From positions 308 through 64,307 of the forward strand of contig JAABSA010000002.1 of assembly GCA_011390635.1 (NCBI GenBank): a stretch of DNA of 64,000 nt, read 5' to 3'. How positions within the stretch are numbered: position 1 is the first letter of the stretch; each line of letters opens with the position of its first letter. The position numbers and the translations under genes are program-made. This document shows positions 7,168 through 44,386 of the stretch, in pieces. The notes beneath the pieces are model-generated. The model ran no database searches. It was not told the DNA's origin and saw only the letters and a list, made by a program, of their open reading frames with translations. The stretch comes from Desulfotignum sp. Its GTDB lineage: Bacteria; Desulfobacterota; Desulfobacteria; Desulfobacterales; Desulfobacteraceae.

Positions 7168-8703
7168 TTAATACAGTTTTCCCACGGCAGATTCTACCGC
7201 CTTCACAATCACCCCCTTTTCCAGCAGGGCTTTGACCGTGGCAATGTCTTTGGACAAAAGCCGGTCCTCTTTCATGTAATCCACATGCTGTCGAATGGTC
7301 TCATAAGCTGCCAGGGTACCGTCCCCTGCCTTGATATTGGTGAACAGGTCGATGGCCTGGGCCCCGCACAGCAGTTCAATGGCAATGACCTCTTCGGTAT
7401 TTTGTACAATATCCCGGCATTTTCTGGCGGCAAATGCGCCCATGGACACATGGTCTTCCTTGTTGGCCGAGGTAGGAATGGAATCAACCGATGCCGGATG
7501 GGCCAGCACTTTGTTTTCAGATACCAAGGCTGCGGCGGCATACTGGGCGATCATATAACCGGAATTCAATCCCCCGTCCTCCACTAAAAATGCGGGCAGA
7601 CCTGACAGATAGGGATTTACAAGACGTTCGATGCGCCGTTCGGATATATTGGCCAGCTCTGCTATGGCAATGCCCAAAAAATCACAGGCCAGTGCCAGGG
7701 GCTGGCCGTGGAAGTTGCCACCGGATAAAAATTCCTCGGAATCGGGAAAAATCAAGGGATTTTCAGTGGAACTGTTCATTTCCACCCGGATCACCTTGTC
7801 CACATAGGCAAAGGTATCCCAAGATGCCCCATGGACCTGGGGAGAACATCTCAGGGTATAGGCGTCCTGGACCCGGGAACAGTCTTCATGGGAGGAAATA
7901 ATCTCGGAATTCTGCGTAATCTTGAGCATGTTCTGGGCTGCCAGTATCTGGCCCTGGTGGGGCCGGGCCTGATGAATCCTGGGGTCAAAGGCGGCCCTGG
8001 TGCCCATGAGGGTTTCCAGGCTCATGGAAGCGGCAATGTCGGCGTGCTTGCACAGATTCAGGGCATCATGCAGGGCGAGGCACCCTAAGGCAATCATGAA
8101 CTGGGTGCCATTAATCAATGCCAGGCCTTCTCCGGCTGCCAGCTCCATCGGTTTCATGGACCGGGATGCCAACGCCTGTGCACCGGTCATACGGATACCG
8201 TCCACAAAGGCCTCGCCTTCTCCAATGAGCACCAAAGACAGATGGGCCATGGGCACCAGGTCCCCGCTGGCACCAACAGACCCTTTTTCCGGCACCAAAG
8301 GCACAATGCCACAATTGAGCATGTCGGCCAGCATCTCAATGGTGTGAAGGCGCAGTCCGGAATTGCCCCGGCAAAAATCATTGACCCGCAGGGCTATCAT
8401 GGCCCGGACCACGTCATCTGCCATGTGGTTTCCCATGCCGGCGGCATGGGAGAACAAAATTTTTTTCTGCAGCCGTTTGGTATCTGCCAGAGAAATGGTG
8501 ACATCAGACAAGGCCCCGAACCCGGTGGTTACCCCGTAAATGCGCTCCCCGTTGTTCACCCATCTGTCCACCAGAATCCTGGCCTTTTTAATACGGCTTT
8601 CCGATGATACGGAAATGGCAATATCTTTGCCGTTTCTGGCGATATCCACCAGTTCTTCCAATTGGAAATGTTCCCCGTCAAGTATAATGGTCTGCTTATC
8701 CAT
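7168..8703 (-). CDS. hutH: Histidine ammonia-lyase
   Basis: A 511-residue enzyme that converts L-histidine to trans-urocanate and ammonia, the first step of the Hut pathway. The electrophilic MIO cofactor forms from Ala-Ser-Gly at residues 145-147 (VGASGDL). The catalytic tyrosine is Tyr56 (YGVTTGFG). The selectivity pair Ser-His at 85-86 (LFSHAAG) is the one typical of histidine-specific members rather than Phe/Leu or His/Leu. A good ribosome site (GAGGAAAAACC) precedes the ATG. The start overlaps the end of hutC by 8 bp, so regulator and enzyme form one transcript. Compare the second MIO enzyme at 40218-41840, which has a different signature. Confidence 0.97.
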   Translation of the reverse strand: MDKQTIILDGEHFQLEELVDIARNGKDIAISVSSESRIKKARILVDRWVNNGERIYGVTTGFGALSDVTISLADTKRLQKKILFSHAAGMGNHMADDVVRAMIALRVNDFCRGNSGLRLHTIEMLADMLNCGIVPLVPEKGSVGASGDLVPMAHLSLVLIGEGEAFVDGIRMTGAQALASRSMKPMELAAGEGLALINGTQFMIALGCLALHDALNLCKHADIAASMSLETLMGTRAAFDPRIHQARPHQGQILAAQNMLKITQNSEIISSHEDCSRVQDAYTLRCSPQVHGASWDTFAYVDKVIRVEMNSSTENPLIFPDSEEFLSGGNFHGQPLALACDFLGIAIAELANISERRIERLVNPYLSGLPAFLVEDGGLNSGYMIAQYAAAALVSENKVLAHPASVDSIPTSANKEDHVSMGAFAARKCRDIVQNTEEVIAIELLCGAQAIDLFTNIKAGDGTLAAYETIRQHVDYMKEDRLLSKDIATVKALLEKGVIVKAVESAVGKLY

Positions 8704-9511: not shown

Positions 9512-9524
9512 CCCCAAAAAACCC

Positions 9525-9556
9525 TTGACATCCTATCTATACTTGTATAGACAAGT
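9525..9556 (+). promoter_or_regulatory. hutU promoter overlapped by a HutC operator
   Basis: A consensus -35 box TTGACA lies at 9525-9530. The -10 candidate TATAGA at 9546-9551 (15-bp spacing, short) lies inside the 16-bp near-perfect palindrome ACTTGTATAGACAAGT at 9541-9556. That palindrome resembles the known HutC half-site pattern CTTGT-n-ACAAG. A repressor bound there would cover the -10 box, giving a simple induction switch by urocanate. The strong ribosome site AGGAGG follows at 9591-9596. Confidence 0.72.
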
Positions 9557-9603
9557 AGTAGCCAATCCACACCCAAAAGTCAACACTTCCAGGAGGAAAA
9601 ACC

Positions 9604-11328: not shown

Positions 11329-11380
11329 TGCCCTTGGCGCAGCCCCGGAATAGAAAGCTGATCCGGCAAAGGAAATATCA

Positions 11381-12637
11381 ATGATCATTACTTCTCACAG
11401 CAGCAATCCATTTCCCGATAATGTCGACCAGATGTTCACCCACTGTCGCATGGCCACCATGGCCAAAGGGAATTACGGTATTATGAAAAACGCGGCCCTT
11501 GCGGTATCCGGAAAAAAAATTTCCTGGATCGGCCCCATGGATGCCCTGCCTGAAACCCTTGGCACCATAAAGGTGACAGACTGCCGGAATCAATGGATTC
11601 TGCCCGGGTTTGTGGACTGCCACACCCACCTGATCTGGGCGGGTTCCCGGGCCGATGAGTTTGAAATGCGCCTGGCCGGGGCATCCTATGCAGACATTGC
11701 CCGGGCCGGGGGCGGTATTTTTTCCACGGTCACCGCCACCCGAGCTGCTGACGAAGACATGCTGTTTGATCTGGCATCACGGCGCATGGCAAGGTTTTTA
11801 CGCCAGGGCATCACCACGGTGGAGATCAAATCCGGCTACGGCCTGGACCTGGACACGGAACTTAAGATGCTGGCCGTGGCAGGCCGGCTGCAAAAGGCCT
11901 GTCCCCAGGATGTGTCAACCACCTTTCTGGGAGCCCATGCCCTGCCCCCAAAATTTGCCGGCCGGTCAGACGATTACATTAAAGAGGTCGTCCGGATAAT
12001 GCTGCCCGAAGTAAAGGACCAGGGCATTGCCACGGCAGTGGATGTGTTCTGCGAAAATATCGCCTTTTCCCGGGATCAGACCCGGCAGGTGTTTGAAAAA
12101 GCCCTGGCGCTGGGGTTTGCCATCAAGCTGCATGCCGAGCAGTTATCCGATTCCAACGGTACGGCACTGGCAGCACAAATGGGCGCCTTGTCCTGTGATC
12201 ACCTGGAATATCTGTCTTTGGACGGTGCCCGAAAAATGGCAGATCATGGCACGGTTGCCGTGTTATTGCCGGGGGCTTTTTATTACCTGAGAGAAACCCG
12301 GATACCGCCGGTGGAATATTTCAGGAACTTACGCATTCCCATGGCCGTGGCCACCGACCTGAACCCCGGTTCCAGCCCGGTTTTCGGCATGATGCCAGTG
12401 CTGAACATGGCCTGCCTGCTCTTTGGCTTAACCTGTGAAGAGGCCCTGGCCGGGGCCACTATCAACGGAGCCCGTGCCCTGAACCTGGCAGATTGCAAAG
12501 GCAGCCTGGAACCGGGCAAAGATGCGGATTTTGTAATCTGGGATGTGGACACACCGGCGGATCTGTGCTATCTCACCGGCATCACTCCCTTACAAAACGT
12601 TGTCATCGGGGGCAAAACAGCATATGTGATGGCATAA
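11381..12637 (+). CDS. hutI: Imidazolonepropionase
   Basis: A 418-residue amidohydrolase that opens imidazolone propionate to N-formimino-L-glutamate. Metal ligands of the superfamily are visible: the His-x-His pair in VDCHTHLIW, a later His in KLHAEQLSD and the Asp in ATDLNPGSS. The AGGGIFSTV segment is typical of HutI. The ribosome site AAGGAAAT precedes the ATG. No gene for the next step (formiminoglutamase HutG, FIGlu deiminase HutF or formimidoyltransferase) is found in this window, so the operon is incomplete here. Confidence 0.96.
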   Translation: MIITSHSSNPFPDNVDQMFTHCRMATMAKGNYGIMKNAALAVSGKKISWIGPMDALPETLGTIKVTDCRNQWILPGFVDCHTHLIWAGSRADEFEMRLAGASYADIARAGGGIFSTVTATRAADEDMLFDLASRRMARFLRQGITTVEIKSGYGLDLDTELKMLAVAGRLQKACPQDVSTTFLGAHALPPKFAGRSDDYIKEVVRIMLPEVKDQGIATAVDVFCENIAFSRDQTRQVFEKALALGFAIKLHAEQLSDSNGTALAAQMGALSCDHLEYLSLDGARKMADHGTVAVLLPGAFYYLRETRIPPVEYFRNLRIPMAVATDLNPGSSPVFGMMPVLNMACLLFGLTCEEALAGATINGARALNLADCKGSLEPGKDADFVIWDVDTPADLCYLTGITPLQNVVIGGKTAYVMA

Positions 12638-22388: not shown

Positions 22389-22431
22389 TCTTTTGACACA
22401 AACTACAAACGTAAACTGCAAGGAGAAACCC

Positions 22432-23220
22432 ATGTCTTTTGAAAACATTATCCTGACAATGGAAAACAACATTGCTTTGATACAGTTCAACCGTCCCAAG
22501 GCATTGAATGCGTTAAACAATGCCATGTTTGATGACCTGGACCAGGCCCTGGACCAGGTACAGGCCAACACTGATGTCCGGGTGCTGGTGCTCACCGGTG
22601 CCGGGGACAAAGCGTTTGTGGCAGGTGCCGACATTGTGGAACTGACCAGGATGACCCCTTTGCAGGGCAAGTATTTTTCCAGAAAAGGCCAAAAGGTTTT
22701 TTCAAAAATTGAAGACCTGCCCATCCCCGCCATTGCCGCTGTAAACGGCTATGCGTTAGGGGGCGGTTCCGAGGCCGCCCTGGCCTGTGATTTTATTTAC
22801 GCATCTGAAAAAGCGGTCTTCGGACTGCCGGAAATCAATCTGGGCCTGATCCCGGGTTTTGGGGGCACCCAGCGCCTGGCACGCCTGGTGGGAAACAATC
22901 TGGCCCGGGAAATGGTGTTTACCGGCAAAAACATTACAGCGCAGCAGGCATATGAATACGGCATTGTCAACCAGGTCTGCCCACCTGAAGACCTCATGGA
23001 CGCGGTTATGAAGACCGCCGGCATTATTGCCGCCAAAGGGCGTGTGGCCCTGCGTGCTGCCAAGGAAGTCATCCACAACGGCAGCAACGCGGACATGGAA
23101 ACCGGCTGCAGGATAGAAAACGATGCATTCGGCCTGACCATGGCCAGTGAAGATGCCAAAGAAGGCACATCCGCCTTTCTGGAAAAACGAAAACCCGTGT
23201 TCAAAGGAGCGCTCAATTAA
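22432..23220 (+). CDS. Enoyl-CoA hydratase (crotonase family)
   Basis: A 262-residue crotonase. The oxyanion-hole segments (AFVAGADIVEL and NGYALGGGSE) are present. Both catalytic glutamates of true hydratases are retained (Glu of GGGSEAAL and Glu of LPEINLG), so hydration of 2-enoyl-CoA to 3-hydroxyacyl-CoA is the likely reaction. The ATG at 22432 is preceded by AAGGAGA at the right distance; longer in-frame starts lie inside the amidase gene. It stands directly before a phenylacetate-CoA ligase gene, so it may act on a CoA thioester in the same aromatic or fatty-acid route. Confidence 0.9.
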   Translation: MSFENIILTMENNIALIQFNRPKALNALNNAMFDDLDQALDQVQANTDVRVLVLTGAGDKAFVAGADIVELTRMTPLQGKYFSRKGQKVFSKIEDLPIPAIAAVNGYALGGGSEAALACDFIYASEKAVFGLPEINLGLIPGFGGTQRLARLVGNNLAREMVFTGKNITAQQAYEYGIVNQVCPPEDLMDAVMKTAGIIAAKGRVALRAAKEVIHNGSNADMETGCRIENDAFGLTMASEDAKEGTSAFLEKRKPVFKGALN

Positions 23221-23278: not shown

Positions 23279-24583
23279 ATGCCCATTTTTAATATTGATT
23301 TTGAAACCATGCCCAGAGAAGGCCTATCGGCCATCCAGCTGAGACGACTCCAGACCACCATTGACCGGGTCTATGCAACTGTGCCTTTTTACAAAAAAAG
23401 TTTTGACGCAGCCGGAATCACACCGGCAGATATAAAATCCCTTGATGATCTGGAAAAAATTCCCTTTACCACCAAGCAGGATCTGCGGGACAACTACCCC
23501 TATGACATGTTTGCCGTGCCCATGGAACAGGTGGTGAGAATCCATGCCTCATCCGGCACAACAGGCAGGCCAACGGTGGTGGGATATACCCGGCGGGATA
23601 TTGAAAGCTGGGCTGAACTCATGGCCAGAAGTTTGTCCGCAGCCGGCGCAGGCTCCGGGGACATCATTCACAATGCCTTTGGATACGGCCTGTTCACCGG
23701 AGGCCTGGGAGCCCATTATGGAGCGGAAAGATTGGGGGCATCTGTAATTCCGGTATCCGGGGGAAATACCAGACGGCAGATCACCATTATGAAGGATTTC
23801 AAACCCACCATCCTGTGCGGTACCCCGTCCTATATTCTTCACCTGGCAGAAGTGGCAGATGAAATGGGCGTTGATTTCAAGGACCTGTTTTTCAAAGCCG
23901 GTATTTTCGGGGCTGAACCCTGGACGGAAAGTATGCGCATTGAACTTGAAACCAAACTTCATCTCAAGGCCGTGGATATTTACGGACTCAGTGAGGTCAT
24001 CGGGCCCGGTGTCTCCATTGAATGCCATGAAGAACAAAAAGGCCTCCATGTATTTGAAGACCATTTCATCGTGGAAATCATCGACCCTGAGACAGGAGAA
24101 ACCCTTCCGCATGGTACACCAGGAGAACTGGTCTTTACCTCCATCACCAAGGAAGCATTTCCCGTCATCCGTTACCGTACCAGGGATATTTCATCTCTGG
24201 ACCCCACTCCCTGCACCTGCGGCAGGACCCATATCCGCATGAGCAAACCTGCAGGACGGACCGATGACATGCTCATCATCCGGGGGGTCAATGTGTTTCC
24301 TTCCCAGATCGAAAGTGTGCTCATGGAAAGCAAAAAAACACTTCCCCATTACCAGCTGGAAGTGGATAGAAAGGATAACCTGGATACCCTCACGGTAAAA
24401 GTGGAAATAGATGAAGGCCTTTTTTCCGATGATATCAAAACCCTCCAGATCATGGAAAACAAAATTGCCATGGATATCAAAGAAACCCTGGGGGTTTCGG
24501 CAAAAGTAAGGCTGGTGGAGCCCAAAGCCATTGAACGGAGCCAGGGGAAGGCAGTCCGGGTAATTGACAAAAGAAACGTATAA
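23279..24583 (+). CDS. paaK: Phenylacetate-CoA ligase
   Basis: A 434-residue AMP-forming ligase of the PaaK family. The phosphate-binding loop [14 protein letters not shown], the acyl-binding region [15 protein letters not shown], the adenylate motif YRTRDIS and the hinge region [20 protein letters not shown] are all present. It activates phenylacetate (or a close aryl acetate) with ATP and CoA. Anaerobes make phenylacetate from phenylalanine by transamination or indolepyruvate-type oxidoreductases and process its CoA ester to benzoyl-CoA. The ACT-domain gene downstream is the standard neighbour in anaerobes. Confidence 0.92.
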
Positions 24584-32591: not shown

Positions 32592-33884
32592 TCAATTGTA
32601 ACCGAACATTCGGGGCAGAAACAATACCACCTGGGGAAAATAGGTCAAAAAAAACAGCACGGCGATCTGGATCACCAGAAACGGCCATATGGCACGGGAC
32701 ACATAGATAATATCGCGCTTGGCCAAAGAGCCGGTAATAAACAGGCTTACCCCCATGGGCGGGGTGCAGTAACCAATGGCCAGATTCACGGTCATGATGA
32801 GCCCGAAATGCATGGGATCCACACCAAACGGGCCCAGAAGCGGCAGAAATACCGGTCCCAGGATCAGGGTCGCGGAAATAATATCCATGAACATGCCGAT
32901 GATGAGCAGCAGAATATTCATGGCCAGTAAAAACATAATGGGAGACTGGATGGTGGAGACCACCACCTCTGCCACCCGGTTGGGGATATTTTCAAAGGTA
33001 AGATACCTGCCGAAACAGGTGGCGGATGCCACGATAAGCAGCAGGGTGGCGGATGTGACCGCAGAACTTACGGTCACATCCTTGATATCGTTAAAACTCA
33101 TGGACCGATAGATAAAATATTCCACAAAAAATGCATATACCGATGCCACAACCGCTGCCTCATTGGCGGTGAACATCCCGGAGAATATCCCGCCGAAGAT
33201 GATGACAATGAGCATCAACGCCCAGAACCCTTCCTTGAAAATCGCCAGCAGATCACCCATTCTGGGGGCGGGCAGCCGTTTGATATCGGTTCTGTTTCTG
33301 TATTTGAGCCAGGTATAGATACATACGCAGAAAATAATCAAGAGCCCTGGGATGAACCCGGTGATGAACAAACCTTCCAGCGACACATTGCTGATCATGG
33401 AATAAAATATCATGCTGATGCTGGGGGGAATGATCACGCCTAAGTTCGGGGAGGTGGTCATGAGACCCAGGGTATATTTTTCATCATATCCATTTCTCAT
33501 CAAAGCAGGGATCATGAACCCGCCCAGGGCCACCACGGTTGCCACAGTGGAACCGGAGATGGCGCCGAACAGCCCGCATCCGATGACTCCGGCCATGCCT
33601 AAGCCCCCTGGCAGCCAGCTCACCAGGGCATTGGCCAGGTTGATCAGTTTTTCCACAGTTTTTCCCTTGCTCATGATATTGCCGCAAAGGATAAAAAACA
33701 GCACCACCACCAAAGAAAAATTGTCCAGACTCCTGAATAAGGTCTGGATCAAAAGCCCCAGGGGCATGTCCAGAAAAAAAATCAGCCCGATGGCAGCGGT
33801 GAAGAACAGACACAAAAAAACTGGTACATAGGTAAACATGCATCCCAAAAGAACACAAAGAATAATCAGATCACTTGTCTGCAT
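32592..33884 (-). CDS. dctM: TRAP transporter large permease
   Basis: A 430-residue membrane protein with 11-12 helices, the DctM family size. Conserved DctM segments include GCGLFGAISGSTVATVVALG, LVPGLGVIIPPSIS-like text (SPNLGVIIPPSISM) and FTANEAAVVASVYA. It is the sodium-coupled translocation unit of a tripartite ATP-independent periplasmic transporter. It is the last gene of the block and starts 15 bp after dctQ. Placement beside the aminomutase/BKACE genes points to uptake of the substrate of that route. Confidence 0.95.
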   Translation of the reverse strand: MQTSDLIILCVLLGCMFTYVPVFLCLFFTAAIGLIFFLDMPLGLLIQTLFRSLDNFSLVVVLFFILCGNIMSKGKTVEKLINLANALVSWLPGGLGMAGVIGCGLFGAISGSTVATVVALGGFMIPALMRNGYDEKYTLGLMTTSPNLGVIIPPSISMIFYSMISNVSLEGLFITGFIPGLLIIFCVCIYTWLKYRNRTDIKRLPAPRMGDLLAIFKEGFWALMLIVIIFGGIFSGMFTANEAAVVASVYAFFVEYFIYRSMSFNDIKDVTVSSAVTSATLLLIVASATCFGRYLTFENIPNRVAEVVVSTIQSPIMFLLAMNILLLIIGMFMDIISATLILGPVFLPLLGPFGVDPMHFGLIMTVNLAIGYCTPPMGVSLFITGSLAKRDIIYVSRAIWPFLVIQIAVLFFLTYFPQVVLFLPRMFGYN

Positions 33885-33899: not shown

Positions 33900-34382
33900 T
33901 TATTTTGATGTGAAATCCTGAACCATCACCTGAATCGTCCTGAGAAACACCATCATGCCTGTAACAGGCATGACGGCGTATACAACAACCAGGGGAATCT
34001 GCATGATGATGGTTTTCTGGTGGGTTAAAAACTGGAGATGGGTCATTTTATATCCATAATAAATCATCATCCCGGCAAACACCAGCATCAGGATATTGGT
34101 ATAAAAAGTCAGGCCTTTTTTCAGTTTGGGAAAAATCTGGACCACTGCGTCGATCCGGATCATGGCCCGCTGCTTGACCGCCACGCTGGCCCCCACGAAC
34201 GTGGAGTAAATGATCACAATCCGGACCAGCTCTTCACTCCAGGCAAGGGTATAGTTAAATCCATACCGCAGGACAACATTGAAAAATAAAGCGATCAACG
34301 CTGCGATGACAATAATGAAAAGGGTCCATTCTTCAAAATGGCCGGCAGCTGTATCCAGTTTCCTAAGTATCTTCCCAAGCAT
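33900..34382 (-). CDS. dctQ: TRAP transporter small permease
   Basis: A 160-residue membrane protein with four helices and the conserved DctQ region FNVVLRYGFNYTLAWSEELVRI. It forms a complex with DctM in the inner membrane. It lies 70 bp after dctP and 15 bp before dctM. Confidence 0.93.
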   Translation of the reverse strand: MLGKILRKLDTAAGHFEEWTLFIIVIAALIALFFNVVLRYGFNYTLAWSEELVRIVIIYSTFVGASVAVKQRAMIRIDAVVQIFPKLKKGLTFYTNILMLVFAGMMIYYGYKMTHLQFLTHQKTIIMQIPLVVVYAVMPVTGMMVFLRTIQVMVQDFTSK

Positions 34383-34452: not shown

Positions 34453-35529
34453 TTACTCGGTTAAAAAGTCCTGCACTTCTTTAAGATAGTTATCGGGTTT
34501 ATAGGTATCACCGGGATATAATCTGTTGATTTCTTCAGCATATTTTTCATAGGTGGCCTGGCTCTGGTCTTTGAGAATTTCTATTTCCGCATCAGGCAGC
34601 TGGATGAATTCCACCCCTTCCCCCTGGGCGGCCACTTTGTTCTCCTCTTCCCAGACAGCTGTTCTTTTCCGGTTCTCAGCAGCGACATCATGTACCGTCT
34701 CAATAAAGGTCTGCCGCAAATCCCCGGGCAGGCTGGCCAGCCATGCCTTGTTGAAAATCCAGATAAACAGCCCCTGGGCATAGTTTATCTCGGTAAAATA
34801 TTTGGCCACTTCAAATTTTTTGGTCAGGTAGCACACGGCCAGGGTGTGGTCCAGACCGGTTATGACCCCCTGTTTCAATGCAACCGGTACATCCGGCCAG
34901 GGCATGGACACAGGATTGAATCCCCAGTTTCGGTAAGACAGCTGATTCACGGCAGCCTCGGCAGTCCGGAATTTTATCTTTTTGGCATCTGCAATGGTCC
35001 TCACCGGTTCAGTGGTGGCCCAGCCATAGTGACCGTATCCGGTAATATCCAGGCCCGTGATGCCCTGGTGGTCCATGGCATTCAAAAAATGGCCGAACAG
35101 TTTTTCATTGGCGATGAACTTGTCCAATTTTTCATAGGAATCCACCAGAAAGGGCAGGTTGACAATACCGAACCTGGGTCCCAGGTTGGTGGATGCCACA
35201 GAAGATACCCCCATGCCCTGGATGGCACCCATCTGCAGCATGTTGAGCACTTCCACTTCGCCACCCAAAATGGAAAGGGGCTTAAAATCAATATAAATCT
35301 GGCCGTTGGTGCGCTTCCACAATTCATCCCGCATTTCAAACCCGGCATGGGTGCCCACCAGGGCGGGTGTGGAAACATTGGAAACAATGCACCGGTACTT
35401 GGCCCCTTTGGGATCAAAGTCGGGTTTCCACTTATCAAGAGAGGGGGCAGCAGCCAGACCGGAAGAAGTGAACATGAATGTTGCCACCGTCAATACCAGC
35501 AGTGAATGGGTAAATGTTCGAAATCTCAT
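34453..35529 (-). CDS. dctP: TRAP transporter solute-binding protein
   Basis: A 358-residue periplasmic protein with a cleavable signal peptide (MRFRTFTHSLLVLTVATFMF, cleavage after SSGLAA-like). The DctP pattern is clear: ILGGEVEVLNMLQMG, FLVDSYEKLDKFI, the gate-Arg region KIKFRTAEAAVNQLSYRNWG (carboxylate binding) and FTEINYAQGLFIWIFNK. Such proteins bind organic or amino acids in the periplasm. I start at the ATG at 35529 because it brings the signal peptide to the front and has AAGGAA upstream. Ligand is not fixed by sequence. Confidence 0.94.
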   Translation of the reverse strand: MRFRTFTHSLLVLTVATFMFTSSGLAAAPSLDKWKPDFDPKGAKYRCIVSNVSTPALVGTHAGFEMRDELWKRTNGQIYIDFKPLSILGGEVEVLNMLQMGAIQGMGVSSVASTNLGPRFGIVNLPFLVDSYEKLDKFIANEKLFGHFLNAMDHQGITGLDITGYGHYGWATTEPVRTIADAKKIKFRTAEAAVNQLSYRNWGFNPVSMPWPDVPVALKQGVITGLDHTLAVCYLTKKFEVAKYFTEINYAQGLFIWIFNKAWLASLPGDLRQTFIETVHDVAAENRKRTAVWEEENKVAAQGEGVEFIQLPDAEIEILKDQSQATYEKYAEEINRLYPGDTYKPDNYLKEVQDFLTE

Positions 35530-35621
35530 AATGTGTGTTCCTTTCCTTAAAATTAAAGTTATGCTGTTGTCAGTGCGGGGGGCCCGTTGCATCCACACTG
35601 GTTGTAACTTTGGTTTGGAAC

Positions 35622-37202
35622 CTATACCAGTTGTTTAAATGCTTCTTTGCGGCCGGTATATTTTTGTCTGAGCTGGGGTTTCATCAATTTTCCCGTGGGA
35701 TTTCTGGGCACTTCATCAAACATTACCTTCCTGGGAACCTTGTACAACGACAATTTGGTTTTGGCAAATGCAATCACTTCTTCCTCACTCATTTTTTGCC
35801 CTTCCTTGAGCTGGACCACGGCCATTACAATTTCCACCAGCCTGTCATCGGGATATCCGATGCAGGCCACATCATCAATATCCGGATGATCCATGAGCGC
35901 GTCTTCGATCTCCACCGGATAAATGTTTTCGCCGCCGCTTGTGATCATGTCTTTCATGCGGTCCACAATATAGAAAAATCCATCCTTATCCCTTTTTAGT
36001 AAATCGCCGGTATAAAGCCAACCATTTTTTATGGTTTCTGCCGTTTTTTCAGGATTGGAGTAGTATTCATACATCATGCGGGGGGTTCTGAAAACCAGTT
36101 CTCCCACTTCTCCGGCAGGCAGTTCATCCCCCAGGGGATCCACAATTTTTGCTTCCACACTGAAGGTAGGCTTCCCGATGGAACCCGGCTTGGTCAACAC
36201 ATCTTCAGGATACAGGTTAAAGGTGCCGCCCCCGCCGCCTTCGGTGATGCCGTAGATATTGGACACCTTGCAGGGCAGTTTTTCCACCAGCTCCTTCATG
36301 ATATCAAAGGGCACCGGCTGGGCACCCACCTCCATGTATTTCCAGGCGGAGAGATCATACTCATCCAGTGTAATCGTCCCTTTATTCATGGCATTGAGAA
36401 TGGCAATGGCAATGGGTACCACAAACAGGGTATCTGTACATCCTTCTGCCGCCAGGGCTTCGATGATCCATTTGGGATCCTTGAAATCTTTGATGATGGT
36501 GCCGGCCGCACCTGTAGCGTAAAACGGGGCCCACAAAAACAGGGTGCCTGAATGGTACAGGGGCAGAAAGATCAGGTAGTTGTCATCTTTTTGCACAAAA
36601 TAGGTCATGCCGTTGCCCACGGCAGTGCTGTTCAAAGAATAATGGGTATGAAGCACCGGCTTGGGTTTTCCGGTAGTGCCCGATGTGAACATCATGGCAA
36701 GACCATGATCCCGTTCCACCTGCACCATGGCATCGGCGGTATCTCCGTATGCGTTGATGGTGGAAAAATCGATCATGTCTTCAGGGACAGTTTTTCCGAC
36801 ACAGATATAATGTTTGATTGAGGTGAGTGAGTTCTGGATCGGCTGCACCACGCCCAGAAATTCGGATCCCAAAATGAACACATCCGGATTGCACACCCCG
36901 GCTGCATACTCGATATCCGGGCTTTCAAACCGGAAGTTCAGGGGCACCACCAACGCACCCAGGCGGATAATGGCATAATAGGTTACCAGCCACTCCAGAG
37001 AATTGTTTTGAAGATGCATGACAAAATCCCCTTTTTTCACCCCCAGTTCCTTTGCCAGAAAATTGGCGGTCCGGTTGATCTCATCATTGAATTCCTGCCA
37101 GGTAAAAGTGCGCCGGGTGCCTGAAGCTGGTGTTCTTTCAATCAGGCAAACCTTTTCAGGAATGTGTCTTGCATGGATTGAAGCATAACCTGAGTAGTTC
37201 AA
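35622..37202 (-). CDS. Acyl-CoA ligase (AMP-forming)
   Basis: A 526-residue class I adenylate-forming enzyme. Motifs: MMFTSGTTGKPKPVL (P-loop-like, about 178-192), YGITEGGGGGTF (acyl pocket), GWLYTGDLLKRD, RMKDMITSGGENIYP hinge and catalytic Lys in RNPTGKLMK. It resembles long-chain or aromatic/short-chain acyl-CoA ligases; the glycine-rich run after TEG is unusual. In this locus it could activate the acetoacetate released by BKACE, or an aromatic acid taken up by the TRAP system. It starts with TTG, preceded by the strong site GGAGGAG. The gap to BKACE is 120 bp. Confidence 0.9.
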   Translation of the reverse strand: MNYSGYASIHARHIPEKVCLIERTPASGTRRTFTWQEFNDEINRTANFLAKELGVKKGDFVMHLQNNSLEWLVTYYAIIRLGALVVPLNFRFESPDIEYAAGVCNPDVFILGSEFLGVVQPIQNSLTSIKHYICVGKTVPEDMIDFSTINAYGDTADAMVQVERDHGLAMMFTSGTTGKPKPVLHTHYSLNSTAVGNGMTYFVQKDDNYLIFLPLYHSGTLFLWAPFYATGAAGTIIKDFKDPKWIIEALAAEGCTDTLFVVPIAIAILNAMNKGTITLDEYDLSAWKYMEVGAQPVPFDIMKELVEKLPCKVSNIYGITEGGGGGTFNLYPEDVLTKPGSIGKPTFSVEAKIVDPLGDELPAGEVGELVFRTPRMMYEYYSNPEKTAETIKNGWLYTGDLLKRDKDGFFYIVDRMKDMITSGGENIYPVEIEDALMDHPDIDDVACIGYPDDRLVEIVMAVVQLKEGQKMSEEEVIAFAKTKLSLYKVPRKVMFDEVPRNPTGKLMKPQLRQKYTGRKEAFKQLV

Positions 37203-37322: not shown

Positions 37323-38255
37323 TCAGAAATTTACCTTGTCAAGTCCCTTGAGCCCCAGAATTTCTCTGGCCTCATCCGAGGTAGCCGGGGTAAGGCTCAT
37401 CTCTTTGGCCACATTTTTGATCATGTTTACCTGATCTGCAGAGGCCTTGGCCATAATGCCTTTTCCGGCATACACCGAATCCTCCAGTCCCACCCGCACA
37501 TTCTGGGCACCCATTGCCATGGCAGTGGTGGTGATGGGGATCTGGAACCTGCCCCCCGCAGCCACAGACCACGTGAAATTTTCTTCCCCTAAAACCTCTT
37601 TGGCTTCATCATGGATCAGTACCAGATGTTTGACGGACGGGGTCATCCATCCCACCATGGGGCCGAACACAAACTGCAGGTGCACCGGCAGTTTTACCAG
37701 GTTTTCCTCCATGAGCCATTTCACATAGGAAACATGACCCAGTTCATAGATCTCAAATTCCGGTTTGGTATCAATTTCCAGGAAGGTTTTGGCATAGATC
37801 AGGTCATCATTGAAGGTGGGCCGGAAGGTGACGTTCTTGCACAGTTCCAGGTAGTCTTTTTCCCAGTCATGCTTGAATTCCTTGAACCTGCTGGCAATCT
37901 GGAAAATCCCGAAGTTAAAGGGTGCCGGATCAAAAGAGCACATTTCAGGTTTCAATTTTTTAATGGGGATCAGTTTTTCTTCCGTGGTCTGGTTCATGCC
38001 GCCCCCGGTGGTGGGAAGCAGCACCATGTTGCACCGGGCCTTGATCTTGGAATGGACCTCGAGGAACAGGTTTGGATCCGATACCGGCAGCCCGTTTTCA
38101 GGATTGCGCACATGGATATGAGCAATGGCGGCCCCGGCCTCCCAGGCCTTGACCGCATCTTCCACAATCTCATCCGGGGTGATGGGCAGATAATCACTCA
38201 TGGTAGGAATGTGGACAGATCCTGTGATGGCTGCTGTAATAATGAGTTTATCCAT
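37323..38255 (-). CDS. Beta-keto acid cleavage enzyme (BKACE, DUF849 family)
   Basis: A 310-residue TIM-barrel enzyme of the family of 3-keto-5-aminohexanoate cleavage enzyme (Kce). The zinc ligands His46 and His48 (AHIHVRN) are at the same positions as in Kce, and the third ligand is the Glu of RVGLED (residue 258). The GGGMNQT loop and the family stretch GSVHIPTMSDYLPITPDEI are also present. These enzymes transfer an acyl unit: a beta-keto acid plus acetyl-CoA gives acetoacetate and an acyl-CoA. Kce itself acts in lysine fermentation, but family members differ widely in substrate. Here it lies with an aminomutase-like enzyme and a beta-amino-acid-type aminotransferase, so an aromatic beta-keto acid is a reasonable guess. 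Confidence 0.9.
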   Translation of the reverse strand: MDKLIITAAITGSVHIPTMSDYLPITPDEIVEDAVKAWEAGAAIAHIHVRNPENGLPVSDPNLFLEVHSKIKARCNMVLLPTTGGGMNQTTEEKLIPIKKLKPEMCSFDPAPFNFGIFQIASRFKEFKHDWEKDYLELCKNVTFRPTFNDDLIYAKTFLEIDTKPEFEIYELGHVSYVKWLMEENLVKLPVHLQFVFGPMVGWMTPSVKHLVLIHDEAKEVLGEENFTWSVAAGGRFQIPITTTAMAMGAQNVRVGLEDSVYAGKGIMAKASADQVNMIKNVAKEMSLTPATSDEAREILGLKGLDKVNF

Positions 38256-38360: not shown

Positions 38361-38843
38361 CTACACCCTGTATTCTTCCTCCAGATCCAGCATAAACATT
38401 CTTTTTTCTTTTACATTATCAATGATAAAGGAGGATTTAATGACCTGAATGCCTTCTATCTGCGTCAGTTTCTTGTTCATGAATTCGCCATAAGTCTTAA
38501 TGTCCTTGGCAGCCACCTTGAGAATAAAATCATTGGCGCCCGCTATCTGGTAACACTCGATCACCTCATCCAGGGCCATAAATTTTTCCTTGATCATGGC
38601 CACGGAAGACAAATTGCTCAAATTCAGGCTGATGTTCACCATGGCCATGATGGAAAATCCGATCGTTTCCGGATTCACCACTGCTGTAAAATGGGTGATT
38701 ACCCCTGCCAGTTCCAGACGCTTGACCCGCTCCAGGGTGGCAGGGGCGGATATACCCACAATTTTTGACAACTTTGAATTTGTTATCTTCCCATTTTCCT
38801 GAAGGGTGTTCAATATTTTTTTGTCAATTCTGTCCAATACCAT
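38361..38843 (-). CDS. Lrp/AsnC family transcriptional regulator
   Basis: A 160-residue regulator: N-terminal helix-turn-helix (LDRIDKKILNTLQENGKITNSKLSKIV, then ISAPATLERVKRLE) and a C-terminal RAM/ACT-like effector domain (from about residue 65). Such proteins sense an amino acid or related compound. It lies 17 bp after the aminotransferase gene and is therefore co-transcribed with it and the MIO enzyme. It is the obvious candidate to sense the amino-acid substrate of the locus. Ribosome site AAGGAGA precedes the ATG. Confidence 0.93.
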   Translation of the reverse strand: MVLDRIDKKILNTLQENGKITNSKLSKIVGISAPATLERVKRLELAGVITHFTAVVNPETIGFSIMAMVNISLNLSNLSSVAMIKEKFMALDEVIECYQIAGANDFILKVAAKDIKTYGEFMNKKLTQIEGIQVIKSSFIIDNVKEKRMFMLDLEEEYRV

Positions 38844-38860: not shown

Positions 38861-40198
38861 TTACAAGAGCAGATGGTTATATTTTTCTTCGATCAATGGC
38901 AACAATTCTTGTAAGGTCTCATCAATTTTTTCCAGGAACATGTCTATGTCATCGTCCGTGATCACTGTGGATAGGATAAACAATCCTCTGGGAATATTGA
39001 AAATCTTTTTGTTGAGCAAAGACAGGTGCATCAGGGTATGCAGTTCTTCTTCCGATGCCAGCACATGCTCGGCACGGGTGGTGGGCTGATTCACAAAATG
39101 AATGTTCAGCAGAGATCCGATCTGGTTGGACTGGATCTTCAGGCCATTAGCGGCAATCTTTGCCAAAAGCCCTTTCTGGAAACGGTCCCCCTTGGCATTG
39201 ATGGCGGCCACTGCTTTTTCATCAAATTTGGACAGGGCTGCAAACCCGGCCTGCATAACCGTTTCATACCCGTTAAAGGTCCCGGAATGGTACAAGGGTT
39301 TTTCGGTATTTTCATGACAGTAAACATTCATGAATTCGGTTTTGCCGCCCAGAACCCCGATGGGCAGGCCCCCGCCCACCACCTTGCCAACAGTGGTGAG
39401 ATCCGGTGTGATACCATACAGGTTCTGGCATCCGCCGGTATCCACCCGGAAAGAAAAGATCTCATCAAAGATCAACAACACACCATGGGCTGTTGTGACC
39501 TCCCTGATCCGTTTGAGAAATCCCTCTTTGGGCAGTACCACACCACCAGCCCCCAAAAAAGGCTCCATGATGACAGCTGCCAGTTCAGAAGCATTTTCCG
39601 TCACCATTTTTTCTGCGGCATCTGCATCATTGAACGGAACCTCCAGCATATCTTCCGTCATGCCCGCCGGAATCCCTGCGGTAATGACGTTTTTTTTGGT
39701 GGAGGCAGCCACGCAGTCATGGGTCCCGTGAAACCCGCCGATCATTTTCAGAATCTTGTTTTTTCCGGTAATGGCCCGGGCCGTGCGCAGGGCAAACATG
39801 GTGGCTTCGGTACCGGAGTTGAGAAACCGCACCTTGTCAAACCCCGGCACCCGGTCACACAACAGTTTTGCCAGATGGTACTGGCCGTCGGTGGGGGTGG
39901 AATACTGGGAACCCCGGGCAATACCGGCCTGGACCGCCGCCACCACATCCGGGTCTCCGTGGCCGTGCACCAGTGCCCCATAGGCATTGGTGACATCCAA
40001 AAGTTCATGGCCGTCATGGGTATATACATGGGCCCCTTTGCCATAATCAATGTGGATGGGCCAGGGTTTAAAATAACTCAAACTCCTGGTGGCACCGCCT
40101 GGAATATAATTGACCAGCCGCTGGTGCCGTTCCCGGGAAGCAGGATACATCTGCTTGTATTCATCGACTATTTTTGCTGCAACAGGATGCACTGACAT
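38861..40198 (-). CDS. Class III aminotransferase, beta-amino-acid (beta-Phe aminotransferase) type
   Basis: A 445-residue PLP enzyme. The Schiff-base lysine is Lys272 in TTVGKVVGGGLP, and DEIFSF holds the Asp that binds the PLP ring nitrogen (residue 245). Annotation pipelines would call it glutamate-1-semialdehyde aminomutase. The segment YIPGGATRSLSYFKPWPIHI (31-50) and the C-terminal IFNIPRGLFILSTVITDDDID instead recall the beta-phenylalanine aminotransferase of Variovorax paradoxus, whose Arg41 binds the carboxylate; Arg38 here is in the matching place. It would convert a beta-amino acid to a beta-keto acid, the substrate class of the BKACE two genes on. The similarity is from memory, not from an alignment run. 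Confidence 0.8.
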   Translation of the reverse strand: MSVHPVAAKIVDEYKQMYPASRERHQRLVNYIPGGATRSLSYFKPWPIHIDYGKGAHVYTHDGHELLDVTNAYGALVHGHGDPDVVAAVQAGIARGSQYSTPTDGQYHLAKLLCDRVPGFDKVRFLNSGTEATMFALRTARAITGKNKILKMIGGFHGTHDCVAASTKKNVITAGIPAGMTEDMLEVPFNDADAAEKMVTENASELAAVIMEPFLGAGGVVLPKEGFLKRIREVTTAHGVLLIFDEIFSFRVDTGGCQNLYGITPDLTTVGKVVGGGLPIGVLGGKTEFMNVYCHENTEKPLYHSGTFNGYETVMQAGFAALSKFDEKAVAAINAKGDRFQKGLLAKIAANGLKIQSNQIGSLLNIHFVNQPTTRAEHVLASEEELHTLMHLSLLNKKIFNIPRGLFILSTVITDDDIDMFLEKIDETLQELLPLIEEKYNHLLL

Positions 40199-40217: not shown

Positions 40218-41840
40218 TTATTCTTTTTTGTGAACAATGAGCAGTTCTCCTACAGCATCTTCCACTCTTTTGACAAACTCACCGGATTCGATCCTGGCCT
40301 TGAGTTCCTCCATATCATCAATATATACCTTGTCCTGACCCATATAGGGAAGGGTTTCGCGGACGGCATCATACATCACCTTAGCGGCCGGCCCCAGTTT
40401 TTCAGGTCCCCGCAGATCGGCTGCCTGGGCCGCACACAGCAGTTCAAAGGAAAGGATGTGGTTGGTGTTTTCCACAATCTTTCTTGCCTTTCTGCCTGCG
40501 ATAAGACCAAAGCTGACAATGTCCTGAAAATCAGCCGTGGAAGTAATGGACTGAATGGAGGCCGGCACGGCCAGAGTCCGGTTTTCCGCCACAAGAGAGG
40601 TGGTCATGAACTGGCCGCCCATAAGTCCCATGCGCACACCGGTATCTTCCTTGCACAAAAACGGCGGCAGCCCGACGCTGTTGGAAGGATCCAGGAAACG
40701 GTCGATACGCCGGTCCGACACCACCCCGATATTGACCATGGAAATCCCCAGGCAGTCCATGACAAAAGAGATGGGCTGGCCGTGGAAATGGCCGTTGTGA
40801 ATAAAGGTGTCAAATTCGGTGAAAATCAATGGATTGTCATTGCTGGAATTCAACTCTCGCAACAACACTTCGCGGGCATGGTTGACAGCCTCTTTGGTGG
40901 GTCCCACAAACTGGGGGGTGCACCGGATGGAATAAGCATCTTCCACCGGGATGTCCGCCACGGAAATGCCTTCATGCTTTTTGAGCACAGCCTGAAGTTT
41001 CAAGGACAATTCCTGCTCATCAATGGCCATATTGGAACCTGTCAACAACTTGGTGAGGTTCATGGCCGTGGCATACTGGCCCGGGTGGTATTTTTGTTCA
41101 TGGACCCGAACATCAAAGGGATTGATCCGGCCCATGAGGGTTTCAATGGCAAATGCGGCAATGATATCCGAGTTTTTCAATGTGTTGGTGGCCTCGGTGA
41201 TCACGGTGCAGGCCAGGCCCACCATGGCGGAGGTGCCGTTGATCAAAGAAAGACCCTCTTTGGCATTCAGGTACATCAGTTCCACGCCGGCTGCATCCAT
41301 GGCTGCTTTGCCGGGCATGACCTCACCTTTATACCGGGCTTTCCATTCGCCGAATCCCACTGCGGCAATGCACCCCAAAGGCCCCAGGTCCCCGCTGGTG
41401 CCCAAAGAGCCTTTTCTGGGAATCAACGGAAACACCTGTTTGTTGATCATATCCAGGTAGATTTTCAGATTTTTTTCCTTGATGCCGGAATAGCCCCGGC
41501 ACAGGGAATTGGCCCGGGCGATCATGAAGATTCTCACCAGAGTGTCTTCAAAAGGTTTTCCCACCTGGGTGGTGATACTTCTCACCAGGTTTTTTTGAAA
41601 ATCATTGTCCCGTTCCTTGGGCAAAAGATGGTCCACAAGCCCACCGCAGCTGGTATTCACCCCGTAAATGCAGCGTTCTTCATTGGCCCATTTATCCACA
41701 AGCTTGCGGCATTCTCTGATCTTGGGCCAGTTGTCCTCATGAACCTGCACCTGCATGGACAGGTCATTGCCCGCCTGCATCAGTTCTTCAATGGTCATTG
41801 TATACCCGTCCAGAATAAGGCGATTGTCTTTGATCGGCAT
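40218..41840 (-). CDS. MIO enzyme of the aromatic aminomutase/ammonia-lyase type (AdmH/PaPAM-like)
   Basis: A 540-residue member of the aromatic amino acid lyase/aminomutase superfamily. The cofactor tripeptide is Thr-Ser-Gly at residues 148-150 (SLGTSGDLGPL) instead of Ala-Ser-Gly, as in the phenylalanine aminomutase AdmH of Pantoea agglomerans. Tyr59 (CIYGVNTS) is the catalytic Tyr. At the selectivity site the pair is Ser-Ile (LVRSIT), not the Ser-His of histidine lyases. Other AdmH-like stretches are WKARYKGE, VEDAYSIRCTPQ and GLMGGQFMT. It probably moves the amino group from C2 to C3 or eliminates ammonia from an aromatic or related amino acid. The ATG at 41840 has GGGAGGAT before it. First gene of the locus. 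Confidence 0.87.
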   Translation of the reverse strand: MPIKDNRLILDGYTMTIEELMQAGNDLSMQVQVHEDNWPKIRECRKLVDKWANEERCIYGVNTSCGGLVDHLLPKERDNDFQKNLVRSITTQVGKPFEDTLVRIFMIARANSLCRGYSGIKEKNLKIYLDMINKQVFPLIPRKGSLGTSGDLGPLGCIAAVGFGEWKARYKGEVMPGKAAMDAAGVELMYLNAKEGLSLINGTSAMVGLACTVITEATNTLKNSDIIAAFAIETLMGRINPFDVRVHEQKYHPGQYATAMNLTKLLTGSNMAIDEQELSLKLQAVLKKHEGISVADIPVEDAYSIRCTPQFVGPTKEAVNHAREVLLRELNSSNDNPLIFTEFDTFIHNGHFHGQPISFVMDCLGISMVNIGVVSDRRIDRFLDPSNSVGLPPFLCKEDTGVRMGLMGGQFMTTSLVAENRTLAVPASIQSITSTADFQDIVSFGLIAGRKARKIVENTNHILSFELLCAAQAADLRGPEKLGPAAKVMYDAVRETLPYMGQDKVYIDDMEELKARIESGEFVKRVEDAVGELLIVHKKE

Positions 41841-41964
41841 GGTATCCTCCCTCATAAAATTATGTTGTTGCCTGCAATGGTACTTTCCAGGGAAAAATCT
41901 ACAGACGTCTGGGCAGTAAAAATGGTGCCGGATAGAAACCAAAAATCTGATTTTCCCTGTATCA

Positions 41965-41994
41965 AGGGTAGCCAGATCCCCATTTCTTTGTCAA
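41965..41994 (-). promoter_or_regulatory. Candidate promoter of the aminomutase locus
   Basis: On the minus strand a consensus -35 TTGACA (41994-41989) is followed after 18 bp by TACCCT (41970-41965) as a -10 candidate, about 125 bp before the start of the MIO gene. The DNA upstream is strongly AT-rich (42000-42110), as is common for promoters controlled by Lrp-type proteins. Confidence 0.45.
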
Positions 41995-42102
41995 GAACTA
42001 TTTTTAATTTTATAAGGGAAATATAAAGATTGTGATGTAATTATCTGATAAAATCGGAATGAAGGCTTATTTTCTAAGTTTTTTTGTATTAAAAACCTTA
42101 TT

Positions 42103-42717
42103 TTAATTAAAATTTTTCAGGTAATGTTCCAGGATTTCGCCCAGCTGCTCCAGACAGCCTCCATAAAAATGATCACATCCCGGAATGATGTGAAATTCAG
42201 GGCTGATTTTCCATCGATTGATGTGGGCCAGAACCATATCAGGCGGTGCAATGTCATCTTCCTGACCGGTGATTATCAATCCTGTGGACGGCAGGGTTTC
42301 AATATCGTCAAAAGAGAGGAATCCCACCGGCGGGGAAACCATTGCATGGTCTTTTATGTCATATCCCTGTGACACAACCGATGCATTGATTCTGGCACCG
42401 AAGGAATACCCGGCCAGGAAAAGGGTCTGCATTCCCAGGTTTTTGAGAAACGCCAGGGCTGCTGTGACATCGGTCTGTTCACCCTGACCATTGTCATACA
42501 TGCCCGTGCTGCCGGCAGTGCCCCTGAAATTGAAGCGCAGGGTGGTGAACCCTTTTCGGGCAAAGCTTTTGGTCACCTGGACCACCACGGAGTTGTCCAT
42601 ATTACCGCCGTACAGGGGGTGTGGATGGGTGATCACAACTGCACGGCTGGAAGAGCTCTTTTCCAGCATGGCCTGGAGCCGGATGGTGTTGTTTTTTATG
42701 ACGATGGATTCTTCCAT
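42103..42717 (-). CDS. Alpha/beta hydrolase, dienelactone-hydrolase-like
   Basis: A 204-residue hydrolase with the nucleophile Ser in GYSFGAR, the oxyanion-region THPHPLYGG near the front, Asp in GQEDDIAPP and His in PGCDHFYGG, giving a complete triad. It belongs to the YdeN/DUF3530-like group of short alpha/beta hydrolases that often sit at the end of operons; substrate is unknown. I start at the ATG at 42717; an earlier start would overlap the pyrG end. It is co-directional with pyrG and eno. Confidence 0.82.
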   Translation of the reverse strand: MEESIVIKNNTIRLQAMLEKSSSSRAVVITHPHPLYGGNMDNSVVVQVTKSFARKGFTTLRFNFRGTAGSTGMYDNGQGEQTDVTAALAFLKNLGMQTLFLAGYSFGARINASVVSQGYDIKDHAMVSPPVGFLSFDDIETLPSTGLIITGQEDDIAPPDMVLAHINRWKISPEFHIIPGCDHFYGGCLEQLGEILEHYLKNFN

Positions 42718-42730
42718 AGGTGCCTGGCCC

Positions 42731-44386
<1,656 letters not shown>

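Follow-up and report, generated by a model that had tools for sequence, protein, structure and literature searches.

An AdmH-like enzyme of Desulfotignum as a probable aromatic amino acid 2,3-aminomutase heading a putative catabolic operon

Why does a marine sulfate-reducing bacterium with an ordinary histidine ammonia-lyase gene, hutH, carry a second and different enzyme of the 4-methylideneimidazole-5-one (MIO) type in the same stretch of DNA? The question is raised by 64,000 nucleotides of Desulfotignum sp. (assembly GCA_011390635.1, contig JAABSA010000002.1, positions 308 to 64,307), hereafter the window, in which the gene concerned lies on the minus strand at 40218..41840. An earlier note, made from the sequence alone, had set this gene apart from hutH, compared it with the phenylalanine aminomutase AdmH of Pantoea and placed it in an apparent catabolic locus. 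The analysis described here suggests that the gene probably encodes an aromatic amino acid 2,3-aminomutase, with L-phenylalanine as the likeliest substrate, and that it would start a catabolic operon leading to benzoyl-CoA.

The open reading frame is complete, with 540 amino acids between an ATG at 41840 and a stop codon that ends at 40218, and AGGGAGGA directly precedes the ATG. PF00221 covers the entire protein with 520 bits, so that chance is no issue for the family assignment. Eight NCBIfam models match the protein and none of them reaches its cut-off. The best is TIGR04475, phenylalanine aminomutase (D-beta-phenylalanine forming), at 662 bits with a cut-off of 800, which makes the enzyme a near relative of this equivalog and not a filed member. 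The tyrosine 2,3-aminomutase model TIGR03832 gives 443 bits (cut-off 501), and the histidine-lyase models PRK09367 and hutH (TIGR01225) give 487 of 524 and 464 of 539 bits. The earlier expectation that automatic annotation would name a histidine ammonia-lyase is right in that these models match, but all of them stay below cut-off and the best model is another one. Among sequences of the Protein Data Bank (PDB), AdmH (3unv) ranks first with 477 bits and 45% identity, followed by the tyrosine aminomutase SgcC4 (about 354 bits) and a histidine lyase (280 bits). The genome (4.09 Mb, 98 contigs) has two PF00221 genes, namely this one and the hutH of the window (8703..7168, minus strand), which scores 690 bits against the hutH cut-off of 539. 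The surrounding hut region, 7168-12637, also holds a gene for a GntR-type regulator and urocanase- and imidazolonepropionase-like genes, the latter two read by eye, and seems to provide separately for histidine degradation.

The residues of the active site were compared in 98 aligned MIO proteins, using only stop-to-stop frames of at least 400 amino acids with an alignment span of at least 430 query residues. The X-Ser-Gly triad required to form the MIO group is present in the window enzyme as Thr148-Ser149-Gly150, the selectivity pair is Ser88-Ile89, and Gln439 occupies a third informative position. The distinction from hutH, which has ASG and Ser-His, was thus confirmed in the sequence. In the clade of the window enzyme (n = 38) the triad is TSG in 37 members and SSG in one, and the pair is SI in 29, SV in four, AI in four and CI in one; the second residue of the pair is Ile or Val, and the position of Gln439 is Gln, in all 38. 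The AdmH-like proteins (n = 29) have AV in 27, TA in one and SV in one, with Gln throughout, and their 28 readable triads are TSG in 26 and ASG in two, AdmH's own triad being a single X in the PDB sequence. Because TSG is shared by both clades and SSG occurs in one member, the triad alone is not diagnostic. All 29 histidine-lyase-like rows have Ser-His and Glu, the His and Glu that bind the imidazole of histidine; the window enzyme has Ile89 and Gln439 instead. SgcC4 combines a Ser-His pair with Gln. With Ile or Val in the pair and Gln at 439, the pocket of the window enzyme is, as far as these positions indicate, nearer to that of AdmH than to the histidine or tyrosine type. Another MIO enzyme of the same phylum (L032) has Ser-His with Gln for Glu and falls outside both the histidine lyases and the clade of the window enzyme. 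Many further MIO matches, at 33-37% identity, were seen in the window's family.

A maximum-likelihood tree of 42 of the 98 rows (LG+C20+F+G4, midpoint root), with AdmH, histidine lyases and SgcC4 but no characterised phenylalanine or tyrosine ammonia-lyase as references, places the clade of the window enzyme (15 rows, support 99/98) beside the AdmH-like clade (14 rows, 100/99) and not inside it. The branch that unites the two has support of 100/100, which bears out the AdmH-like affinity proposed earlier. The histidine lyases (11 rows) form a separate 100/100 group, and there was no clustering of the window enzyme with them. Long-branch warnings concerned SgcC4, L032, L100 and the join of the histidine-lyase side with AdmH-like rows, all of which were kept. 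Given its place beside the AdmH-type aminomutases, and Ile and Gln where histidine lyases have His and Glu, the enzyme is, on sequence grounds, not a histidine lyase.

A scan of GTDB genome contigs with the window enzyme and AdmH as a pair yielded 76 loci. Forty-four of these, at 76-98% identity, belong to Desulfobacteraceae or to metagenome-assembled genomes (MAGs) titled Desulfobacterales, Deltaproteobacteria or Proteobacteria, two of them (L077 and L106) being contigs of a single genome. Three loci at 67-78% identity are gammaproteobacterial (L072, L075 and L110), and the other 29, at 43-49%, are AdmH-like and come from actinobacteria and a few proteobacteria. The nearest named relatives, at 94-96%, are in Desulfotignum MAGs; a MAG titled Desulfobacteraceae has a fragment that matches at 98%. 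Apart from the holders of this gene, none of 395 sampled genomes from the window's phylum had an MIO gene exceeding 41% identity to it.

The gene order around the enzyme points to degradation. The MIO gene is the first of eight co-directional genes, all on the minus strand, and is followed by those for a class III aminotransferase (38861..40198), an Lrp/AsnC-type regulator (38361..38843), a beta-keto acid cleavage enzyme (BKACE, former DUF849; 37323..38255), an AMP-forming acyl-CoA ligase (35622..37202) and a tripartite ATP-independent periplasmic (TRAP) transporter, with binding protein DctP (34453..35598; PF03480, 174 bits), small permease DctQ (33900..34382; PF04290, 89 bits) and large permease DctM (32592..33884; PF06808, 370 bits). 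The gaps along the block measure, in order, 19, 17, 105, 120, 23, 70 and 15 bp. Among the 44 related loci, counted without the three gammaproteobacterial ones and with loci of too little contig removed from each denominator, two genes always follow that of the MIO enzyme, those for the aminotransferase (37 of 37 loci) and BKACE (34 of 34). The counts for the remaining genes are 31 of 34 (regulator), 29 of 30 (ligase), 22 of 27 (DctP), 21 of 25 (DctQ) and 21 of 24 (DctM). The 29 AdmH-like loci served as a control (flanks up to 10 kb, less at contig ends): BKACE was matched in none of them and the aminotransferase in two (28 and 37% identity), and distant ligase matches (23-26%) were common. One AdmH-like locus, L105 of Saccharopolyspora elongata, has a class III aminotransferase (37%) about 1.7 kb downstream of its MIO gene, possibly another pairing of an MIO enzyme with a transaminase. 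The block is present in the cultivated Desulfospira joergensenii DSM 10085 (L044) and in genome G496, which we take to be the cultivated Desulfobacula toluolica Tol2.

The aminotransferase (PF00202, 190 bits) has 6k8h as its best PDB sequence, and the top seven also include three more beta-transaminases, 4ao9, 6iz9 and 2yku, and three glutamate-semialdehyde mutases. Its Arg38 and Arg404 have aligned counterparts in the Variovorax beta-phenylalanine aminotransferase 4ao9, two arginines that we take, in number and in role, to be R41 and R398. Arg404 aligns with the arginine of a PRG motif in both 4ao9 and 6iz9, a position at which 6K8H has Ala, and Arg38 corresponds to Arg36 of 6K8H. The latter is a Sphaerobacter thermophilus transaminase active on beta-phenylalanine, and its Arg36 has been proposed to bind the substrate carboxylate (accessible part of PMC10589169). 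The motifs GG.(S/T)R and PRG are also readable in the aminotransferases of the three gammaproteobacterial loci. Glutamate-1-semialdehyde mutase was considered for this gene and rejected, since the models PRK00062 and hemL give 346 of 398 and 339 of 527 bits and the arginines of beta-transaminases are kept; the mutases 3bs8 and 3k28 have neither of these arginines in the aligned parts. We propose that the gene encodes a beta-phenylalanine transaminase.

BKACE matches PF05853 with 287 bits, far above the gathering cut-off of 24.8, and its best NCBIfam model, NF053538, stays below cut-off at 342 of 430 bits. By position in its own sequence, the protein has His46, His48 and Val14; we take the metal ligands of Kce to be His46 and His48, and its residue 14 to be Glu. 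Benzoylacetate, to be cleaved with acetyl-CoA, is the substrate proposed here. The ligase (PF00501, 249 bits) is 73% identical to one in a phenylacetate/phenylpyruvate cluster of genome G161, which we take to be that of D. multivorans DSM 2059. It may rescue cinnamate, or activate benzoate or acetoacetate.

Taken in the order of the chemistry, the TRAP transporter would take up the substrate amino acid, the MIO aminomutase would convert L-phenylalanine to beta-phenylalanine, probably the (S) form, and the transaminase would turn this into benzoylacetate. BKACE would then use acetyl-CoA to produce benzoyl-CoA and acetoacetate, and benzoyl-CoA would pass into the anaerobic ring-reduction pathway, whose genes lie in another part of the genome. 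No simpler route can be drawn from the three genes that are most constant, those of the MIO enzyme, the transaminase and BKACE. The choice of substrate leans on one pocket position, on the company of the benzoyl-CoA pathway and on the transporter. AdmH reportedly gives (S)-beta-phenylalanine for the antibiotic andrimid (accessible part of PMC3903478), and the transamination of beta-phenylalanine in Paraburkholderia is (S)-selective, its product being a beta-keto acid that decarboxylates to acetophenone (accessible part of PMC6150868). The stereochemistry would thus fit, and an enzyme that traps the keto acid before it is lost to acetophenone, as BKACE would do here, would be of help.

The genome itself encodes 6-oxocyclohex-1-ene-1-carbonyl-CoA hydrolase, the ring hydrolase (TIGR03200, 556 bits, cut-off 464), at G000:C15:59831-60913. 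Subunit B of the class I benzoyl-CoA reductase (TIGR02260) reaches only 181 of 487 bits, and a class II reductase is presumed, for which no search was made. The ring hydrolase was found at E <=1e-60 in 37 of the 46 genomes reached through MIO loci, in 34 of them over cut-off. In the family (86 genomes), the two genes occur together in 38, the MIO gene alone in eight, the ring hydrolase alone in four and neither in 36 (Fisher p = 3.9e-12, uncorrected for shared ancestry); for the 45 that are at least 95% complete the figures are 20, two, one and 22. In this table the MIO gene was counted only at 84% identity or more, which left out a 75-residue fragment at 76% (L114), and the ring hydrolase at E <=1e-60, in 42 genomes, 39 of them over cut-off. 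In the genus g249 either gene occurs in only two of 19 genomes, and each of these has both. The genomes are mostly MAGs, and the exceptions are partly incomplete genomes. Co-occurrence with the benzoyl-CoA pathway, together with the conserved order of aminotransferase, BKACE, ligase and TRAP genes, substantiates the catabolic setting that had been suggested for the locus. An AdmH-like catabolic aminomutase is likewise supported by tree, gene order and co-occurrence, the 2,3-amino shift itself being what we infer.

The gammaproteobacterial version of the cluster offers a further view of the chemistry. Directly after the MIO gene, L075 and L110 have a gene for an AMP-forming ligase, then one of the thiolase family and then one for a class III aminotransferase, with no other gene between; the MIO gene of L110 is a fragment at the start of its contig. 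The ligases score 711 and 699 bits to PRK12582 (cut-off 777) and the thiolase-family proteins 170 and 175 bits to TIGR01930 (cut-off 241). No BKACE was found in the 8.4 and 10.6 kb examined at these loci. In Aromatoleum, a ligase and a thiolase, the latter unknown, reportedly treat benzoylacetate derived from acetophenone (accessible part of PMC4729919). By analogy, we propose that the ligase and thiolase of L075 and L110 are a different means of cleaving the same kind of beta-keto acid. Two non-homologous modules that could each cleave a beta-keto acid, beside the same MIO enzyme and a transaminase, give the strongest hint of the chemistry.

The third locus, L072 (Halieaceae), has the MIO gene, an aminotransferase (70%), a regulator (67%) and then a ligase of PaaK-like type, which scores 197 bits to NF041878 (cut-off 700). 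All three gammaproteobacterial holders have the ring hydrolase, at 664-675 bits; among 274 genomes drawn from their class it occurs in nine, two of which are MIO holders. In L169, one of the holder genomes (L169, L170 and L171) of L072, L075 and L110, the genes had, oah, dch and bcrCBA adjoin one another, and all exceed their cut-offs. The stretch 4050-11319 of L072 holds the PaaK-like ligase and, after it on the same contig, a run of genes resembling those for heme d1 and nitrite-reductase maturation, as judged from reading frames by eye, and in L075 a D-amino acid dehydrogenase-like gene (6545-7804, 348 of 383 bits) follows the aminotransferase. That L075 and L110 come from sponges is a guess from isolate names.

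We thus consider it reasonably probable that these loci reveal a new anaerobic pathway in which an MIO aminomutase, a beta-transaminase and BKACE would lead to benzoyl-CoA, with no need for ATP or for phenylacetate and phenylglyoxylate steps. It would be common to sulfate reducers and some gammaproteobacteria, with interchangeable cleavage modules, either BKACE or ligase plus thiolase. No precedent for a catabolic pathway with an MIO aminomutase was met among the open-licence papers listed; by their titles, those listed for aminomutases together with benzoyl-CoA deal with taxol, antibiotics, other biosynthesis, anaerobic enzymes and regulation. A precedent in a subscription journal is possible. 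The text of a review of MIO enzyme evolution (PMC9002059) contains neither 'Desulfo' nor 'sulfate'.

The transporter links the locus to published proteomes. The DctM of the window is 90% identical to one in G496 and 85% to one in G161, other matches there being at most 35%; no other DctM listed in G496 is more than 30% identical to that of the window. G496 carries the block from the MIO gene to DctQ, with DctM adjoining. In G161, DctMQP lie at 2.784-2.787 Mb, beside the ligase that is 73% identical to that of the window. Compared with their counterparts in the MIO block of G496, DctM, DctQ and DctP of G161 show 90, 75 and 79% identity. In section 9 of PMC5109826, a TRAP transporter of Tol2 is called supposedly phenylalanine/phenylacetate importing, with D. 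multivorans homologues 74-90% identical. As the identities between G161 and G496 match these figures, the transporter of the MIO block is very probably DctM9Q9P9 of Tol2. The same section states that padB and padEFGHI are absent from the sulfate reducer D. multivorans. The cluster of G161 (L190 and L191, 2.775-2.795 Mb) contains genes for a 3-hydroxyacyl-CoA dehydrogenase, a dehydrogenase/enoyl-CoA hydratase fusion, a thiolase, two ligases and a BcrA/D-type ATPase. It looks like a route from phenyllactyl-CoA by way of cinnamoyl-CoA to benzoyl-CoA rather than one to phenylglyoxylate, and its thiolase is 45-47% identical to the thiolases beside the MIO gene in L075 and L110.

Several points weigh against the proposed pathway. 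Each reaction, substrate and stereochemical course, the ligand of the regulator and the role of the ligase are inferred from sequence. The enzyme falls short of the TIGR04475 cut-off, and its Ser-Ile differs from the Ala-Val pair of the AdmH-like clade. By eye, the transaminase has only the Pro (S17P), one of four residues, of a motif proposed for aromatic beta-transaminases, and the wild-type 6K8H, which is active on beta-phenylalanine, has none of the four, as given in the accessible part of PMC10589169. The identity of the BKACE substrate is a further weak point, as none of the papers found ties this pocket to a substrate. In the gammaproteobacteria, the transaminases of L075 and L110 are just 34% identical to that of the window, and the holders have ten BKACE matches, of which the four loci examined are 27-28% identical to the window's and unlinked to the MIO gene.

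The co-occurrence is also imperfect, beyond the share that common ancestry may have in it. Among the 46 genomes to which the MIO loci led, nine show no ring hydrolase at E 1e-60 and three more have only fragments below cut-off; it is missing in eight of the 46 MIO holders of the family, including one stated to be 100% and one 96% complete, and four family genomes have it without the MIO gene. According to section 9 of PMC5109826, the degradation of phenylalanine and phenylacetate in Tol2 was believed to run via phenylpyruvate, IorAB and phenylglyoxylate, and the transporter has been linked to phenylacetate too, which the MIO operon would not explain. Both routes may coexist, or a related compound may be what the MIO block serves. 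A search of 28 kb of the G161 cluster showed the ligase and the TRAP genes, but no MIO gene, aminotransferase or BKACE, so that ligase and transporter are not tied to an aminomutase.

Could the same logic serve another aromatic amino acid, above all tyrosine? The products would then be beta-tyrosine, 4-hydroxybenzoylacetate and 4-hydroxybenzoyl-CoA. Tyrosine aminomutases of the MIO type do exist (SgcC4), and the benzoyl-CoA pathway would also serve 4-hydroxybenzoyl-CoA after reductive dehydroxylation. The reductase for that step (TIGR03193) was over cut-off in none of 47 and none of 3 genomes, but this count does not speak against tyrosine: many matches reach up to 189.5 of the 257.8 bits required, a threshold that may be too strict for this group. 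The pocket argues for phenylalanine, with a hydrophobic Ile in the window enzyme and Val in AdmH where SgcC4 has the His of Ser-His, and so do the 443 bits to TIGR03832 against 662 to the phenylalanine model. Section 9 of PMC5109826, moreover, links the homologues of the transporter to phenylalanine, phenylacetate and phenylpyruvate. We regard a pathway for tyrosine or another aromatic amino acid as unlikely.

The enzyme might instead act mainly as an ammonia-lyase, whose cinnamate would be activated by the operon's ligase to cinnamoyl-CoA and shortened by beta-oxidation to benzoyl-CoA, with aminotransferase and BKACE serving otherwise. Lyase activity of AdmH at elevated temperature has been described (accessible part of PMC3903478), the ligase has its 73% homologue in the G161 cluster among a 3-hydroxyacyl-CoA dehydrogenase, a dehydrogenase/hydratase fusion and a thiolase, and the window has an enoyl-CoA hydratase-like gene of its own at 22330-23220, outside the MIO block. 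Against this stand the 37 of 37 and 34 of 34 loci with aminotransferase and BKACE, the most constant partners and neither of them needed for a lyase route. The eight genes of the block include no match to a hydratase or to a 3-hydroxyacyl-CoA dehydrogenase, and in L075 and L110 the run of MIO gene, ligase, thiolase and aminotransferase is uninterrupted. A lyase route is, in our view, unlikely.

To our knowledge, MIO aminomutases, the characterised relatives of AdmH included, are known from biosynthesis only. By that precedent the block could be biosynthetic, its beta-amino acid going into a secondary metabolite, as that of AdmH goes into andrimid (PMC3903478, in the part accessible), or into an osmolyte. 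This is very improbable for the window, where BKACE and uptake by TRAP look degradative, the MIO gene tends to occur together with the benzoyl-CoA pathway, and a scan of ten proteins at 30.8-42.7 kb gave no match to a non-ribosomal peptide synthetase or polyketide synthase; a secondary-metabolite role was rejected for want of any biosynthetic partner among these ten. A second histidine ammonia-lyase, for which membership of PF00221 and the 464-487 bits to histidine-lyase models might speak, can be dismissed with near certainty, as tree, residues and model scores all reject it: the protein is below both cut-offs and outside the histidine-lyase clade, all 38 clade members have Ile or Val in place of the His and Gln in place of the Glu, and a normal hutH stands in the same window with urocanase- and imidazolonepropionase-like genes beside it.

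Some features at the edges of the block deserve mention. The Lrp/AsnC-type regulator, with PF01037, PF13404 and PF13412 over cut-off, is probably the amino-acid sensor of the operon, as the family would predict. Between the start of the MIO gene and an upstream hydrolase gene lies a gap of 262 bp (41841..42102, minus strand), presumed to be the promoter region. It contains one weak promoter-like match (42036-42007, 9/12), which is no evidence by itself since the scan gave 12 matches with 13.0 expected by chance from shuffled sequence; the terminator scan gave 10 with 11.3 expected. The alpha/beta hydrolase gene itself (42103-42744) was considered as an operon member and rejected, since in related loci it is mostly a neighbour of pyrG and enolase or stands kilobases away from the MIO gene. 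A PaaK-like (phenylacetate-CoA ligase-like) gene was read by eye at 23279-24583.

If the proposed phenylalanine pathway is correct, an MIO aminomutase would have a catabolic job, and bacteria would have, in addition to the phenylpyruvate route, a further strategy to bring phenylalanine to benzoyl-CoA. Pad genes are missing in sulfate reducers, Desulfobacula toluolica among them, and as far as phenylalanine is concerned the pathway would close that gap. It would also provide a cooperating set of aminomutases, beta-transaminases and a BKACE that acts on aroylacetates. In marine sediment, detrital protein makes phenylalanine a common substrate, and the reaction could therefore be widespread.

The closest parallel in logic is lysine fermentation, of which the pathway would be an aromatic counterpart. 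There, lysine 2,3-aminomutase, a radical-SAM enzyme with an aliphatic substrate, is followed by oxidation to a beta-keto acid and cleavage with acetyl-CoA by Kce, a BKACE. In both cases the amino group would move to the beta carbon before oxidation and BKACE cleavage; in the window, however, the first step would fall to an MIO enzyme with a probably aromatic substrate. The closest parallel in sequence is AdmH of Pantoea agglomerans (3unv), which shares 45% identity, a hydrophobic pocket residue, Gln in place of the histidine-lyase Glu and a neighbouring clade. AdmH makes (S)-beta-phenylalanine for andrimid (PMC3903478, accessible part), whereas the window gene, with S-I instead of A-V, heads a block that looks degradative.

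Three degradation routes share parts of the chemistry. Paraburkholderia, an aerobic case, transaminates beta-phenylalanine to the beta-keto acid with (S)-selectivity (accessible part of PMC6150868), but there beta-phenylalanine is supplied and the keto acid decarboxylates, whereas here an aminomutase would make the former and BKACE would trap the latter. The acetophenone degradation of Aromatoleum (Apc, Bal and a thiolase) has benzoylacetate as an intermediate and a ligase and thiolase like those of L075 and L110 (accessible part of PMC4729919), but its benzoylacetate comes from the carboxylation of acetophenone and not, as proposed here, from beta-phenylalanine, and the window has BKACE. The phenylpyruvate, phenylacetyl-CoA and phenylglyoxylate route of Thauera and Aromatoleum has the same start, phenylalanine, and the same end, benzoyl-CoA (accessible parts of PMC9765128 and PMC5109826). 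The proposed route would dispense with alpha-deamination, alpha-oxidation and phenylglyoxylate, and would cut the chain between C2 and C3 of the beta-keto acid.

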